From a virus, in IMG/VR virus record IMGVR_UViG_3300027788_000046, positions 1-30,657 of that record: DNA of 30,657 nucleotides. One strand, 5' to 3'. This document shows positions 1-30,657 of the stretch, piece after piece. The notes under the pieces were generated by a model. It was not told where the DNA came from. It saw only the letters and a list, made by a program, of their open reading frames with translations, and ran no database searches. Both the position numbers and the translations under genes were made by a program. The first letter of the stretch is position 1, and the number at the start of each line of letters is the position of its first letter.

Positions 1-207
1 TAAACGCTTTATATAAAACCTATGGAAATTAGACCACGATTAAACGGAAACAAAAAAACAGCATACGAAAACATAACTAAGAAAGAAACTCGTGTATTAG
101 CTATTGGAGATTTACATGAGCCATTTTGTTTAGATGGTTACCTTGAACACTGTCAGGAAACTTATGCAAAATATAATTGTAATAGAGTTGTATTTATAGG
201 AGACGTG
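1..207. repeat. Left copy of the terminal overlap (circular genome join)
   Basis: These 207 bases recur at 30451-30657. I find only two differences: A at 69 versus G at 30519, and G at 81 versus A at 30531. Both fall on third codon positions of the phosphoesterase gene (GAA/GAG for Glu16 and AAG/AAA for Lys20) and are silent. The first 32 bases are also the 3' end of the Cys-rich gene whose full copy is 30072-30482. The simplest reading is an assembly overlap of a circular or circularly permuted genome of 30,450 bp, with the mismatches coming from strain variation. A physical terminal repeat is the alternative, but silent differences between the two ends of one molecule would be unusual. Confidence 0.93.
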
Positions 208-1153: not shown

Positions 1154-1836
1154 TAGTTTTATTTGATGCTGATAGTTTAGTGTATTCTTCTTGTTGTGGT
1201 GTTGATGATATACTAGATGAAGCTATAGGAAAGTTTGACCAGGTATTTATGTCTATAGTAAATAAACTAGAAGAAACTTACGAAATAGATAAGGTAATAA
1301 CATTTAATAATAGTAGGGGAAACTTCAGAAAACTATTAGACCCAAACTACAAAGCCAATAGAAAGAAGCAAGAACACCCAAAGCTATTAAACGAAATGCA
1401 CGAACACATTGCAGAAATATATTCTACTAAAAAAGGTTGTGGAGTAGAAACTGACGACATGGTTGCAAGATACTGGAAAACACTTACCGATGAACTGGGG
1501 CGTGATAATGTTATAATAGTATCAATAGATAAGGATTACAAGCAGTTTCCAGCCTTAATTTATAACTATCATTACAAACACCAATGTATATATGATATAA
1601 CCCCTTACGAAGCTTTATATAACTTCTATGAACAAATGATAATTGGAGATGGTGCTGACAATGTAAACTACTGCAAAGGCTATGGAAAAGTATATGCAAG
1701 TAAATTATTTAAAGATTGCACAACACATTATCAATTTACAAAAAACACATACAATTTATTTAAAACAATATACAAATCAAAAGCAAAGTTAAAATACATA
1801 CAATGTTATAACCTTTTAAAGTTAAGGACACAATGA
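1150..1836 (+). CDS. 5'-3' exonuclease, T7 gp6-like (FEN/PIN fold)
   Basis: A 228-residue protein with the acidic metal-binding motifs of the 5' nuclease family: FDAD (residues 5-8), a basic KANRKK segment (68-73) of the helical arch, ETDD (100-103), SIDKD (125-129) and IGDGADN (165-171). The family degrades double-stranded DNA from 5' ends and removes RNA primers and flaps. T7 gp6 also breaks down host DNA and feeds recombination. The gene is joined by four-base overlaps to both neighbours. It lies directly before the dioxygenase-nuclease-glycosyltransferase cassette, so it may act on unmodified host DNA or during recombination-dependent replication. The exact role is inferred. Confidence 0.87.
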   Translation: MIVLFDADSLVYSSCCGVDDILDEAIGKFDQVFMSIVNKLEETYEIDKVITFNNSRGNFRKLLDPNYKANRKKQEHPKLLNEMHEHIAEIYSTKKGCGVETDDMVARYWKTLTDELGRDNVIIVSIDKDYKQFPALIYNYHYKHQCIYDITPYEALYNFYEQMIIGDGADNVNYCKGYGKVYASKLFKDCTTHYQFTKNTYNLFKTIYKSKAKLKYIQCYNLLKLRTQ

Positions 1837-2051
1837 AACTATTTGAAGATGATTGGGGTGTAGATAACAGCGCAATAGATAACACAGAAATAACCACTAC
1901 AATACTATATTTTAGTAAAGAAGAATTAAAAGAGTTTAAAAATTTATGTAAGCTTGGAATTAAAAAACACTATGCAGAACAAGCACAACAAAAAGGCAAT
2001 TTAAGTGATTACTTATTATTAATATTAAAAAAAGATAATGAAAACAATTAA
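1833..2051 (+). CDS. Hypothetical protein, 72 aa
   Basis: A 72-residue protein with an acidic N-terminus (residues 4-20) followed by a helical, Lys- and Glu-rich part (27-66). No domain is recognised. It overlaps the exonuclease by four bases and the dioxygenase by 14 bases, so it sits inside the same translationally coupled chain. Its fixed place between exonuclease and dioxygenase suggests a partner of one of them, which is inference only. Confidence 0.72.
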   Translation: MKLFEDDWGVDNSAIDNTEITTTILYFSKEELKEFKNLCKLGIKKHYAEQAQQKGNLSDYLLLILKKDNENN

Positions 2052-2904
2052 ATTAAATAACCATTTTAAAGCTAACCAAGCTGATAAATTTAAAGGTAAG
2101 TTTTTAAATGAAAATGATTTTGATACATTAATAACCGAAGATTGTGATGGCTTTGATATGTATGGTAATTTATTGTTTAGGTACAGAAAAAACGCCTTAC
2201 CTACCGAAACCCTACTATTAGGCTACAACAGTTTTAAAGAAAGCATAGAGCTCACTGAGGGGCGTGGCATAGCTTCAGGCAGTAGTCATAAGAGAATACG
2301 TAAAGACGGGACAGTAAGTAATATTACTGTAGGGAACAAAGTATATAGCGGAAGCGTTGGTTACATGGATGCTGGTGCAATGGTGCATTATTGCAGAAAG
2401 ACAGCTTTTGCACGTAAATACTTTGATGAGTTTACAGCTGGAATTCCATTTGTAGAATACATAGACAAAAAATACAAAGAACTTTGCCCTGAACATTATG
2501 CAAAACAAAAAGCAATTGCAGACGGAACGAACAGAAATTATGTAATAGGGAACACAAGTTTTACAACTGTTACTGTAAATAAAAATTTTATAACAGCAGT
2601 ACACAAAGATAGTGGTGATTTCCCTGAGGGGTTTGGTAATTTAATCACATACAGGCAAGGCAATTATGATGGAGGGTATTTTTGTTTGCCAGAATATAAA
2701 GTTGCTATTGATATGCAAAACAACGACTTACTATTTGTTGACGTACACAAATGGCACGGAAACACAGAAATAACAAATAAAAGCGATGACTGGTTACGCA
2801 TTAGCTTTGTATTATATTACCGAGAATATATGTATAAATGTAACCAACCAAGTAAAGAATTACAAAACATAAAACAAAACAAAACAGGATACTTAAAATT
2901 ATGA
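2038..2904 (+). CDS. TET/JBP-type 2-oxoglutarate/Fe(II) DNA base dioxygenase
   Basis: A 288-residue protein whose C-terminal half carries the catalytic core of the TET/JBP nucleic-acid dioxygenases. Visible are the iron ligands HKD (His189, Asp191) after an NKNF segment, a conserved YDGG turn (210-213), the distal His in KWHGN (His240) and the 2-oxoglutarate-binding Arg in LRIS (Arg254). The family oxidises the methyl group of 5-methylcytosine (TET and phage TET-like enzymes) or of thymine (JBP of kinetoplastids), giving 5-hydroxymethyl bases. The N-terminal 120 residues are less familiar. Downstream, linked by a four-base overlap, are a nuclease-like gene and a glycosyltransferase that could decorate the new hydroxyl group. 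I see no cytosine-5 methyltransferase in this closed genome. The substrate is therefore open: thymine, host-made 5-methylcytosine, or less likely a non-DNA target. Confidence 0.84.
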   Translation: MKTIKLNNHFKANQADKFKGKFLNENDFDTLITEDCDGFDMYGNLLFRYRKNALPTETLLLGYNSFKESIELTEGRGIASGSSHKRIRKDGTVSNITVGNKVYSGSVGYMDAGAMVHYCRKTAFARKYFDEFTAGIPFVEYIDKKYKELCPEHYAKQKAIADGTNRNYVIGNTSFTTVTVNKNFITAVHKDSGDFPEGFGNLITYRQGNYDGGYFCLPEYKVAIDMQNNDLLFVDVHKWHGNTEITNKSDDWLRISFVLYYREYMYKCNQPSKELQNIKQNKTGYLKL

Positions 2905-3356
2905 ACAGAGAAACAAAACAAAAAAAAGGATTAAAGTTCGAATCATTCATTATGGATTGGTTTGCTAAGGAAAAAAACATAAACCTTAGCCATTACACAA
3001 CTCTTGAAGAACAAATACACAAAGGCGAAAACAGGCAAGGCATTGAAATAAAAAATGACCAAATGTTTAAAAATACTGGCAACCTTTTTATAAGTGTTGA
3101 GCGTGAATATGATTATACTACATATGCAAGTGGTATATTTAAAAATCAAAGTTGGCTTTATGTTATAGGCGATAAAGAGTGTTTTTATATTTTTAGCACT
3201 AAACAATTACAACAAATATACAATGGTAATAAACCAAAATTATATAATGGATTTAAAACATTAAAGGGTGGTACAGAAAAAGGTTTTTTACTAAATAAAA
3301 CAATGGCTGATAAATATTGTATAGAAAAAATAAATATACAAACTAAATTATTTTAA
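2901..3356 (+). CDS. Putative PD-(D/E)XK-like nuclease in the base-modification cassette
   Basis: A 151-residue protein. After an N-terminal helix (KGLKFESF, with Glu14) it shows GENRQGIEIKND (residues 42-53), which fits a PD-(D/E)XK core with Glu43, Glu49 and Lys51, followed by a hydrophobic strand (LFISVE, 62-67). This is the usual helix-strand-strand order of restriction-like nucleases, but the first acidic residue is atypical, so the call is tentative. It lies exactly between the dioxygenase (four-base overlap) and the glycosyltransferase (one base apart). A nuclease placed there could spare glycosylated phage DNA and attack unmodified DNA, or could act in repair or packaging. The product ends in TKLF, as does the glycosyltransferase after it. 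Confidence 0.55.
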   Translation: MNRETKQKKGLKFESFIMDWFAKEKNINLSHYTTLEEQIHKGENRQGIEIKNDQMFKNTGNLFISVEREYDYTTYASGIFKNQSWLYVIGDKECFYIFSTKQLQQIYNGNKPKLYNGFKTLKGGTEKGFLLNKTMADKYCIEKINIQTKLF

Positions 3357-3357
3357 T

Positions 3358-4119
3358 ATGGACAACTTTTATATATTTATACCAACAAAAAACAGGTACG
3401 ATAATTGTAAAACTGCAACCCTTATAGGTGATTATAAAAATTTGTTTTTAATTGTAGAACCACAAGATTATAAAAAATACAGGATTAATTACCCCCACTC
3501 TAATATTATACAACTCCCAGAAGATGATAAAGGGATTATTTATTGTAGGAATTTTATTAAACAATATACAGAACAAAAAGATATTAAATATTATTGGCAA
3601 ATAGATGATGATATATCGTACATATATAAAAGAAAATTAACAAAATTAATCAGGCACAATTCTTTAGAAGCGTTAACATATTGTAATGATTATTTTATAA
3701 ATAATAACATATCTGTTGGTTCTTTAGAGTATAGACAATTTGCTTGGTGTGCTACAAAAGATATTATATTAAATTCGTTTTGTGATAGTGTTGTATTTAT
3801 AAATAATACATTAACTAAAAATATGCGTTATACTGAAGGGACGAAAGAAGATAGAGATTTTTGTATTCAAGTTATTAGTAAAGGGTTAAAAACTGGTAGG
3901 CTGACAACCTATGCTTTTTCAGCCCCAGCAAATGGGAGCAACAATGGAGGGTTAAAAGAAATATTTTATGATGTTAAGGGGGCAGAACTAAACACTTGTA
4001 AAAAAATGATTCAAATTTGGGGTGATGATATATGTAAACACATTGTAAAGCCAGACGGAAGAAACGACTTAAAAATAAATTGGAAAAATATTAATAGCAA
4101 ACAAACAAAATTATTTTAA
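3358..4119 (+). CDS. Putative TET/JBP-associated type glycosyltransferase
   Basis: A 253-residue protein with a GT-A-like layout: an N-terminal strand and loop (FIFIPTKNR-like, residues 4-13), an acidic QIDDDI motif (81-86) that can serve as the metal and sugar-nucleotide binding DxD, a second acidic motif KEDRDF (163-168), and a C-terminal GRNDLKINW segment. This pattern fits the glycosyltransferases found next to TET/JBP enzymes in phages, a family related to the kinetoplastid base J glucosyltransferase. The reaction would be transfer of a sugar to 5-hydroxymethyl bases made by the dioxygenase at 2038-2904. It starts one base after the nuclease-like gene. Sugar and base identity cannot be read from sequence. 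A general GT2-like enzyme is the alternative. Confidence 0.72.
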   Translation: MDNFYIFIPTKNRYDNCKTATLIGDYKNLFLIVEPQDYKKYRINYPHSNIIQLPEDDKGIIYCRNFIKQYTEQKDIKYYWQIDDDISYIYKRKLTKLIRHNSLEALTYCNDYFINNNISVGSLEYRQFAWCATKDIILNSFCDSVVFINNTLTKNMRYTEGTKEDRDFCIQVISKGLKTGRLTTYAFSAPANGSNNGGLKEIFYDVKGAELNTCKKMIQIWGDDICKHIVKPDGRNDLKINWKNINSKQTKLF

Positions 4120-4185: not shown

Positions 4186-4425
4186 ATGAATTTAGATAAA
4201 GACACAGTAATTGAATTTTACAATTTAGCATTATATGAATATGAAAAAGGCACAAACATAACAGAACTTAAATTAGTTTTAAAAGAATACGAAACACAAC
4301 AAATGTATTTAGAATGCGCTGGTATAAAACTAGCCATAGAGTACATTGAATTTTTACTAATATTACAATTAATAATATATAAAAACAAAATAAATGACAA
4401 CAACACAGATAATGAATTTAGTTGA
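4186..4425 (+). CDS. Hypothetical helical protein, 79 aa
   Basis: A 79-residue protein predicted by eye to be mostly helical, with a hydrophobic segment (FLLILQLIIY, residues 56-65) that could be a short membrane helix or a buried helix. No family is recognised. A GGGAG lies 12 bases before the ATG, which is unusual in this genome where A-rich leaders dominate. The 3' end overlaps the DnaA-like gene by 32 bases. Confidence 0.6.
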   Translation: MNLDKDTVIEFYNLALYEYEKGTNITELKLVLKEYETQQMYLECAGIKLAIEYIEFLLILQLIIYKNKINDNNTDNEFS

Positions 4426-4858
4426 AAACGAACTAGGTTACAACATAAGCGGAAAGACAAGGGCAAGGCAAGTCGTGTACGGAAGAGCCATATACTTTAA
4501 AATATGTAAAGACAGAACAAACTTATCTTTGCAAGAAATAGGAGAAACTCTAAACCTACACCATGCCACAGTACTACACTCAATAAGAAACGTATTCCCA
4601 GCCTTTGAAATGTACAATCCTGAATACATGGAGATATACAATAGAATAATAAAAGCAGAGGAATACATCCCAGCTGATAAACAATTAGCAAGGTTAAAAA
4701 TACAACACTATCAATTAGAATTAAAATACAACTATGTAAAGAACCTAAACATAGACATAAAGCATAGAACACTATTAAGCAAAATAAAAGAAATACCAGA
4801 CTTAAAATTACAAGAAGCTGAAAAGCGTATTGATAGACTTGTTGAAAGGCTTAAATAA
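4394..4858 (+). CDS. DnaA domain IV-like DNA-binding protein
   Basis: A 154-residue protein. Residues about 18-68 resemble the C-terminal DNA-binding domain of bacterial DnaA: a basic helix (KTRARQVVYGRAIYF), a turn (LSLQEIGETLN) and the signature-like HHATVLHSI (56-64), close to the DnaA HTTVLHA motif that contacts DnaA boxes. The AAA+ ATPase part of DnaA is absent. The rest (about 80-154) is Lys- and Glu-rich and helical. It may mark the phage origin and recruit the host replisome, or act as a transcription regulator. It stands before the terminase genes. The start context is AAATGACA, with overlap into the previous gene. Confidence 0.72.
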   Translation: MTTTQIMNLVENELGYNISGKTRARQVVYGRAIYFKICKDRTNLSLQEIGETLNLHHATVLHSIRNVFPAFEMYNPEYMEIYNRIIKAEEYIPADKQLARLKIQHYQLELKYNYVKNLNIDIKHRTLLSKIKEIPDLKLQEAEKRIDRLVERLK

Positions 4859-15692: not shown

Positions 15693-16655
15693 ATGTCAAA
15701 TAGATTAGACTTAGCTACAACAGTAAACATTACTTCAACTTATGCTGGAGAGTTTGCTGGAAAGTACATCTCTGCTGCTCTTTTGAGTTCAAGCACAATT
15801 GAAGATGGTGGTGTTACAGTAATGCCAAACGTAAAATACAAATCAGTTATCCAAAGGATAGAAACTGGAAACTTAATCGCAGACGGAACTTGTGATTTCA
15901 CTCCAATTTCTAACGTAGATTTAACTGAGGTTATAATTATGCCAGAGGAATTTCAGGTAAACTTACAATTATGTAAGTCAGACTTCATTAATACATGGGA
16001 AGCTGCTCAAATGGGATTCAGTGCCTTTAATCCAAATGGATTACCAACATCATTCGCTGATTATTTAGTTGGATATGTTGCTGGAAAAGTTGCTGCTGCA
16101 AATGAAACTAACATTTGGACTGGTAATCTCGGAGGAGCACAAGCTGGAGAATACAACGGACTAGAAACTTTAGCTGCTGCTGATGCAACTGTTATTGATG
16201 TACCAACTCCAGTAGCTTTAACTGCTGCTAACATTATTGATAAAATGCAAGCTGTGGTAGATTTAATTCCAAATGCACTTTATGGTAAAGAAGATTTGAA
16301 ATTATACGTTTCAAACAAAGCTGCTAAATTATATGTTAGAGCTTTAGGTGGATTTAGTGTAGCTGCAACTGCAAATTCAGGTACAGATGCAAAAGGAACA
16401 CAATGGTACAGTAATGGAAGTTTAACTTTTGGAGGAATTCCAATCTTTGTAGGAAGAGGGATGTCTGACGATACAATGATAGCTGCTGAATCAAGCAACC
16501 TGTTTTTCGCGACTGGACTTCTTAACGATTACAACGAAGTTCGTGTAATTGACATGACTCCAATGGATGGAAGTCAGAATGTACGTCTCGTTATGAGATT
16601 CACGGCTGCTGCTGCGATAGGAGTCGGAGCGGATGTAGTTTACTACGCTGGATAA
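15693..16655 (+). CDS. Major capsid protein, HK97 type
   Basis: A 320-residue protein with the composition and position of a major capsid protein: Ala-rich, few charged residues, directly behind protease and scaffold genes. Segments such as VNLQLCKSDFINTWEAAQMG, a spine-helix-like SFADYLVGYVAGKVAAANE and GGIPIFVGRGM near the end are typical of HK97-fold capsid proteins of Bacteroidetes phages. Codon use is notably regular, as in highly expressed genes. The gene is followed by a hairpin. The start follows an AT-rich leader, AAAAACTAAAAATTATG. Confidence 0.82.
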   Translation: MSNRLDLATTVNITSTYAGEFAGKYISAALLSSSTIEDGGVTVMPNVKYKSVIQRIETGNLIADGTCDFTPISNVDLTEVIIMPEEFQVNLQLCKSDFINTWEAAQMGFSAFNPNGLPTSFADYLVGYVAGKVAAANETNIWTGNLGGAQAGEYNGLETLAAADATVIDVPTPVALTAANIIDKMQAVVDLIPNALYGKEDLKLYVSNKAAKLYVRALGGFSVAATANSGTDAKGTQWYSNGSLTFGGIPIFVGRGMSDDTMIAAESSNLFFATGLLNDYNEVRVIDMTPMDGSQNVRLVMRFTAAAAIGVGADVVYYAG

Positions 16656-30075: not shown

Positions 30076-30482
30076 AAGCACCAAAAGATAAACGCACCAA
30101 AGAGTATAAAGAATGGAAAGCAAATTACGAAAAAGAATCAACAGGTTTAGGCGATACTATTGCAAAAATCACAAAAGCCACTGGGATAGATAAAGCTGTT
30201 AAGTTTTTAGCTGGAGAAGATTGTGGCTGTGACGCTAGACAAACAGCTATGAATAAAGCATTTAGATATAAAAGACCCAAATGTTTTTTAGAAGATGAAT
30301 ACACTTATTTAACCGAATGGTTTAACAACCCACGCAGTAGAGTAAAGCCAAATGAACAAAAAGAATTATTAAAAATATACAACAGAGTTTTTAGTGATAA
30401 AAAAGTAATGACATCCTGTGGAAGTTGTATAAGAAATATTACTAATGATTTAAACGCTTTATATAAAACCTATGGAAATTAG
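30072..30482 (+). CDS. Cys-rich hypothetical protein, 136 aa
   Basis: A 136-residue protein with a basic N-terminus (KDKRTKEYKEWKANYEKES), then GLGDTIAKITKATGIDKAVK (residues 26-45), GEDCGCDARQ (48-57), RPKCFLEDEY (68-77) and TSCGSCIRN (114-122). The two C-x-C or C-x-x-C pairs suggest zinc binding. The pattern G-x-G-D-x-x-x-x-x-T-x-x-T-G-I and E-D-C-G-C is common in Bacteroidetes phages, with unknown role. The stop lies across the circular join, 11 bases inside the phosphoesterase gene. Its last ten codons and stop are repeated at 1-32. Confidence 0.72.
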   Translation: MKAPKDKRTKEYKEWKANYEKESTGLGDTIAKITKATGIDKAVKFLAGEDCGCDARQTAMNKAFRYKRPKCFLEDEYTYLTEWFNNPRSRVKPNEQKELLKIYNRVFSDKKVMTSCGSCIRNITNDLNALYKTYGN

Positions 30483-30657
30483 ACCACGATTAAACGGAAA
30501 CAAAAAAACAGCATACGAGAACATAACTAAAAAAGAAACTCGTGTATTAGCTATTGGAGATTTACATGAGCCATTTTGTTTAGATGGTTACCTTGAACAC
30601 TGTCAGGAAACTTATGCAAAATATAATTGTAATAGAGTTGTATTTATAGGAGACGTG
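30451..30657. repeat. Right copy of the terminal overlap
   Basis: Repeats bases 1-207 with two differences (30519 and 30531). The repeat ends at the window edge and so gives only a lower limit of the overlap if the molecule is terminally redundant. It shows that the Cys-rich gene and the phosphoesterase gene are adjacent in the closed genome. Confidence 0.93.
30472..30657 (+). CDS. Phosphoesterase gene, partial second copy (N-terminal 62 codons)
   Basis: The same gene as at 22-732, cut by the window end after 62 codons, just past the GDV motif. The two base differences are silent, so the protein is identical over this part. It is an effect of the circular overlap and not a second gene. Confidence 0.9.
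   Translation, partial: MEIRPRLNGNKKTAYENITKKETRVLAIGDLHEPFCLDGYLEHCQETYAKYNCNRVVFIGDV

Follow-up and report, generated by a model that had tools for sequence, protein, structure and literature searches.

A TET/JBP oxygenase-glycosyltransferase cassette without a cytosine methyltransferase in a small marine phage, a candidate phage analogue of base J

We analysed a DNA stretch of 30,657 nucleotides (the window), corresponding to positions 1-30,657 of the IMG/VR virus record IMGVR_UViG_3300027788_000046, which represents a small marine bacterial virus. Because its ends repeat each other (Table 1), the genome closes on itself, as the initial annotation had stated, resulting in a size of ~30,450 bp. 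The three intact ORFs, found exactly where they had been placed before, encode a TET/JBP-family oxygenase (288 aa), a small protein here called ORF151 (151 aa) and a TET-associated glycosyltransferase (TAGT; 253 aa), and they are translationally coupled by a 4-base ATGA overlap followed by a 1-base gap. Among named phages, Nonlabens phage P12024L (NC_018272) comes closest, encoding an oxygenase (gp26) and a TAGT (gp27) in adjacent genes with 77% and 54% identity to the window proteins, respectively. A small ORF of P12024L (16207-16422) overlaps the oxygenase start, as the 72-aa ORF does in the window. From the likeness to P12024L we guess at a flavobacterial host. Further downstream, the window encodes a small protein with a DnaA C-terminal DNA-binding domain (4394-4858; 1.5e-11), which is a possible phage replication initiator.

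Table 1. Positions and assignments of the features in the window.
Feature	Position	Strand	Basis
Terminal direct repeat	1..207, copy 30451-30657	.	2 mismatches over 207 bases
72-aa ORF, function without assignment	1833..2051	+	ORF list; coupled, overlaps oxygenase gene start
TET/JBP-family 2-oxoglutarate/Fe(II) dioxygenase	2038..2904	+	Pfam Tet_JBP 1.8e-26; PHROG 24024 8.7e-111
ORF151, small conserved oxygenase companion, PD-(D/E)XK-like	2901..3356	+	weak fold match; no Pfam family
TET-associated glycosyltransferase (TAGT, GT-A type)	3358..4119	+	Pfam TAGT 5.8e-23; PHROG 842 7e-31

The initial annotation had assigned the first gene to the TET/JBP dioxygenases by its core residues, and the profile search of this gene confirms the assignment with a Tet_JBP score of 92.8 bits compared to a curated Pfam cut-off of 34.9. 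The AF2 model of the oxygenase (pLDDT 92) is predicted to adopt the TET double-stranded beta-helix fold, the top Foldseek matches all being TETs, i.e. NgTet1 (4e-13), CcTet, TET2 and CMD1. The metal ligands H189, D191 and H240, forming the HxD...H Fe(II) triad, and the downstream 2OG-binding R254 are unchanged across 22 homologues and throughout clades A-E of an alignment of 113 sequences. D194 stands at what we take to be the base-reading position, corresponding to NgTet1 D234 and TET2 N1387. We dropped an attempt to read substrate preference from the active-site columns, as these follow phylogeny rather than the presumed substrates of the clades. A PDB sequence search with the oxygenase and with the TAGT returned no match, and a PDB profile match to a dioxygenase was dismissed as chance. 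The annotated names of several TET/JBP oxygenases, i.e. those of HTVC112P (gp18), Cr30, DLP6, S-CBWM1 and PHROG 6059, read 'SNF2 DNA repair protein', 'DnaJ chaperone' or 'queuine tRNA-ribosyltransferase'; the SNF2 and DnaJ labels look as if they were inherited from the names JBP2 and 'DNA J-binding protein'.

The comparison covers ~340 loci, drawn from IMG/VR, from bacterial genomes and from phage records and scanned with home-built profiles. In a quick tree of 113 oxygenases, with SH-aLRT support only and without a true outgroup, the window belongs to clade A (support 100), the sister clades being B (Pelagibacter phage HTVC112P type) and C (Cr30/DLP6 type; 94). Clades A, B and C together with a few others are grouped on one side (SH-aLRT 96), with the Melnitz-type clade D (99) and the actinophage clade E falling outside. 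A ParB-like gene, seen for instance at L051 (6973-7602), adjoins the oxygenase at 77 of the 81 clade B loci and in actinophages, possibly encoding a targeting partner; in clade A it hardly ever takes this place, and it was not found near the window oxygenase.

The third gene had been proposed to encode a TAGT, and here again the profile search agrees (PF20691; 82.3 bits, cut-off 27.5), the translation showing an IDDD motif as the GT-A DxD. The TAGT is predicted to glycosylate a hydroxymethyl base. According to a 2026 paper (PMC13216743), TAGT homologues occur in many phages for which no further known glucosyltransferase is noted. For the middle gene the assignment is less clear. In 66 clade A loci ORF151 lies directly behind the oxygenase gene, usually with a spacing of 0-18 bp and rarely of ~180 bp. 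It contains the invariant residues E43 and E49-x-K51, with N44 at a position for which one might expect an acidic residue. The Pfam scan assigned it to no family, and for the AF2 model (pLDDT 89) the best fold match, the PD-(D/E)XK homing endonuclease I-Ssp6803I, is weak (probability 0.98, E 0.025, TM 0.44). The earlier PD-(D/E)XK assignment is weakly supported by the invariant E49-x-K51 and this fold match. ORF151 might possibly act as a nuclease of unmodified DNA or as a targeting factor. In P12024L the middle gene is absent.

The initial annotation had found no cytosine-5 methyltransferase, thymidylate synthase (TS)-like or hydroxymethylase gene in this genome, and this holds: PF00145 (C5-methyltransferase) has no match in the whole record, and Pfam scans of the window ORFs detect no methyltransferase, TS-like or hydroxymethylase gene and no PF00303 domain. 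The window thus contains neither a C5-methyltransferase beside the oxygenase, as phage 5mC-TET systems do, nor a TS-family dUMP hydroxymethylase of the M6/ViI type. As IMG/VR records may be fragments, single absences mean little, and we put weight on the pattern over many long contigs. A C5-methyltransferase is encoded in 67 of 72 clade D loci, nearly always directly beside the oxygenase, and in 11 of 98 clade A IMG/VR contigs, each searched over its whole length, there mostly 1.6-3.3 kb downstream of the oxygenase. We found none in clade B (0/81 loci) and clade C (0/84 loci), including 33 large B/C contigs of up to 197 kb, and none in the named phages HTVC112P, Cr30, DLP6, S-CBWM1, C48C1 and P12024L. 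PF00303, comprising TS and hydroxymethylases, was detected in M6, ViI, phiW-14 and T4, but in none of the 57 IMG/VR contigs tested; of the named phages encoding a TET, Cr30 alone has it.

Comparison of the loci reveals that the slot following the oxygenase or ORF151 is filled by alternative modules. In clades A, B and C it is occupied by a TAGT alone or by an amino acid:DNA transferase (ADDT) together with a P-loop kinase. Within clades A and B, TAGT is present in 98 loci, none of them with a kinase, and ADDT in 35 loci, 32 of them with the kinase, the two being near-exclusive alternatives (Fisher 1e-27). Since related loci are not independent, we counted switches on the tree and used independent pairs, resulting in at least 10 changes between TAGT and ADDT in clades A and B and in 11 independent pairs supporting the joint travel of ADDT and kinase (p about 0.002). 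The closest sisters of the window locus illustrate this: L003, L005 and L006 show the order oxygenase-ORF151-ADDT-kinase without TAGT, encoding oxygenases 93-94% identical to that of the window, and none of the 18 differences between the window and L003 oxygenases affects a metal or 2OG ligand. The window itself lacks both ADDT and HMU-DNA kinase. A third arrangement, oxygenase-ORF151-kinase, occurs at L053 (2652-3654), L057 (2940-3942) and L072 (2762-3777), in which neither ADDT nor TAGT was found and a gene of 150-180 aa without assignment follows. In the clade E actinophages MO526 and LittleMunchkin, for which the search for a C5-methyltransferase was negative, ADDT is encoded next to the oxygenase.

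The families of the alternative module connect these loci to phages with characterized DNA. ADDT (PF18724) is present in ViI, M6 and phiW-14 and absent from T4, the DNA of which contains hydroxymethylcytosine. The thymines of ViI, M6 and phiW-14 are chemically known to be hypermodified (PMC6449724). The L003 ADDT has no Pfam match by hmmscan but is detected by PF18724 in a whole-record search (5e-25) and by PHROG 3271 (6e-74), the PHROG to which both the relatives' ADDT and the ViI protein belong (profile alignment 7.7e-37). The relatives' kinases share PHROG 800 with M6 gp54 and Vi01_061c, the profile match to both being weak; in phiW-14 and ViI the kinase HMM matches are likewise weak (0.001-0.002), lying inside genes annotated as M6 ORF054-like or PHROG 800, so that we accept homology at the family level only. 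PHROG 800, M6 gp54 (NC_007809, 41685-42248), Vi01_061c and phiW-14 gp36 carry the label 'terminase small subunit'; these genes appear to encode the P-loop kinases of thymine hypermodification loci, the label looking wrong and having spread. TAGT and kinase are also present in the C5-methyltransferase-linked clade D, in which ADDT is not found, showing that neither TAGT nor kinase is thymine-specific; the kinase was dropped as a thymine marker as 28 methyltransferase-linked clade D loci carry it.

The window is strongly depleted of 4-bp palindromes containing G/C, i.e. GATC (5 versus 41 expected), GGCC (0 versus 16), CTAG (24 versus 74) and CATG (34 versus 75), and in many TAGT-type relatives CATG is missing altogether. 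The avoidance of GATC and GGCC resembles that of flavophage P12002L, for which our search gave no TET match, and is unlike that of M6 or phiW-14. It argues against any modification being a blanket one, such sites not being protected wholesale, and it fits a sparse or site-specific modification as for base J, which is sparse in kinetoplastids. We considered palindrome avoidance as a test for T versus C and dropped it: as the avoidance concerns GC-only as well as T-containing sites, it bears on the extent of the modification only.

Of the two options raised by the initial annotation, i.e. 5-methylcytosine (5mC) supplied by the host or thymine hydroxylated as by JBP, the comparative evidence favours thymine, short of proof. 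As best reading, with a probability of roughly 60%, the cassette would convert thymine in DNA to 5-hydroxymethyluracil (5hmU) followed by glycosylation, acting as a phage analogue of base J. The oxygenase would hydroxylate selected thymines at the methyl group once they are part of the DNA, and the TAGT would transfer a sugar onto the hydroxyl of the resulting 5hmU, a route needing neither a methyltransferase nor synthesis of a modified nucleotide. The modification would probably be sparse or site-specific and may shield the DNA from some host nucleases. This reading draws on the near-identical oxygenases working with either TAGT or ADDT, for which the substrate is most likely the same, and on ADDT plus kinase otherwise being known from phages with hypermodified thymine. 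With PF00303 found in M6, ViI, phiW-14 and T4 and in none of the 57 contigs, we see no source of a hydroxymethyl group for ADDT other than the oxygenase. The absence of a C5-methyltransferase from nearly all relatives, with clade D having it adjacent, points in the same direction.

According to the main alternative, the oxygenase acts on 5mC made by a host or phage C5-methyltransferase, yielding 5-hydroxymethylcytosine which the TAGT glycosylates. Known phage TETs are described as acting on 5mC (Burke et al. 2021, cited in PMC12730594), and clade D pairs TET with a C5-methyltransferase and sometimes with a TAGT. The 11 positive clade A contigs are in line with this, and in the related loci L031 and L038 oxygenase, ADDT, kinase and C5-methyltransferase lie in one run, a natural case in which both pyrimidines could be compared. 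Moreover, 52 of 121 genomes of the related bacterial family, that of a Winogradskyella MAG, encode a C5-methyltransferase, so that a host could supply 5mC, but over half of the family's genomes do not. Clades B and C never carry the enzyme, even on contigs of 160-197 kb, the methyltransferase just after the P12024L TAGT is of the N6/N4 type, and ADDT, alternating with TAGT, occurs in proven hypermodified-thymine phages and neither in T4 nor in clade D. Taken together, we regard modification of cytosine as unlikely, while still being the most serious competitor of the thymine reading. Much less probable is that oxygenase and transferase do not work on bulk phage DNA but on marks of host DNA, on RNA or at a few regulatory sites, or that the oxygenase erases host-type marks. 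The strong restriction-site avoidance, suggesting a genome that is not broadly protected, and the sparseness of kinetoplastid base J itself would agree with it, but TAGT, ADDT and kinase as DNA-modifying partners recur with the oxygenase over three clades, and the nearest folds of the modelled oxygenase are all DNA-acting TETs. The unusual I185 near the metal site, a position mostly occupied by R or Q in clade A, could speak for a decayed or inactive cassette in the window phage; with three intact ORFs, all catalytic residues kept and identical oxygenases in L001 and L002, we consider this very improbable.

Extending the thymine reading to the family, we think it somewhat better than an even bet that in clades A, B and C the TET/JBP enzyme serves as an in-DNA thymine hydroxylase working without a methyltransferase and combined with interchangeable decorating modules. 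TAGT would then create a true phage base J and ADDT plus kinase would create amino-acid-type thymines, with the window representing the glycosyl version and its closest sisters carrying the amino acid version.

The cassette shares features with several known systems without matching any of them. P12024L gp26-gp27 resembles it in the adjacent oxygenase and TAGT and in lacking a C5-methyltransferase, but is without ORF151, has the N6/N4 methyltransferase after the TAGT and shows a different gene order elsewhere, thus being a homologue only. Kinetoplastid base J synthesis by JBP1/JBP2 and the J glucosyltransferase would be alike, if thymine is the substrate, in a hydroxylase followed by a glycosyltransferase, both acting on DNA; the window oxygenase differs from JBP by having no JBP DNA-binding or SNF2 domain, and TAGT is a family other than the J glucosyltransferase, to which it is presumably unrelated. 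Systems of the type of Burke et al. 2021, represented by clade D, share the TET/JBP oxygenase and sometimes the TAGT, but have a C5-methyltransferase beside the oxygenase, which the window lacks, and belong to a different clade. M6, ViI and phiW-14 encode an ADDT and a P-loop kinase of the families with which relatives of the window oxygenase are paired; however, these phages make 5hmU as nucleotide by a TS-family dUMP hydroxymethylase, while here the oxygenase would act in DNA, and the window has TAGT instead of ADDT. The ParB-TET-aGPT-Pplase2-kinase cluster of the actinophage Tonitrus contains a TET-like gene and was labelled a thymidine hypermodification system by its authors (2025 genome note, PMC11955845). 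It differs from the window by probably being of the distant clade E type and by no TAGT being reported; its function, too, is a prediction. As this label precedes our work, the general idea is not new; it has a precedent, for which the swap pattern is new support.

As a summary, the TET/JBP plus TAGT cassette without methyltransferase is real and widespread. If the thymine reading is true, phage thymine would be armoured without a modified nucleotide pool and base J would have a counterpart in bacterial viruses, which would bear on the origin of kinetoplastid JBP. A single oxygenase would partner either of two unrelated finishing chemistries, making viral DNA armour modular, and the enzymes would be tools for writing 5hmU derivatives into DNA. 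The large natural series of near-identical oxygenases with different partners could settle the substrate.
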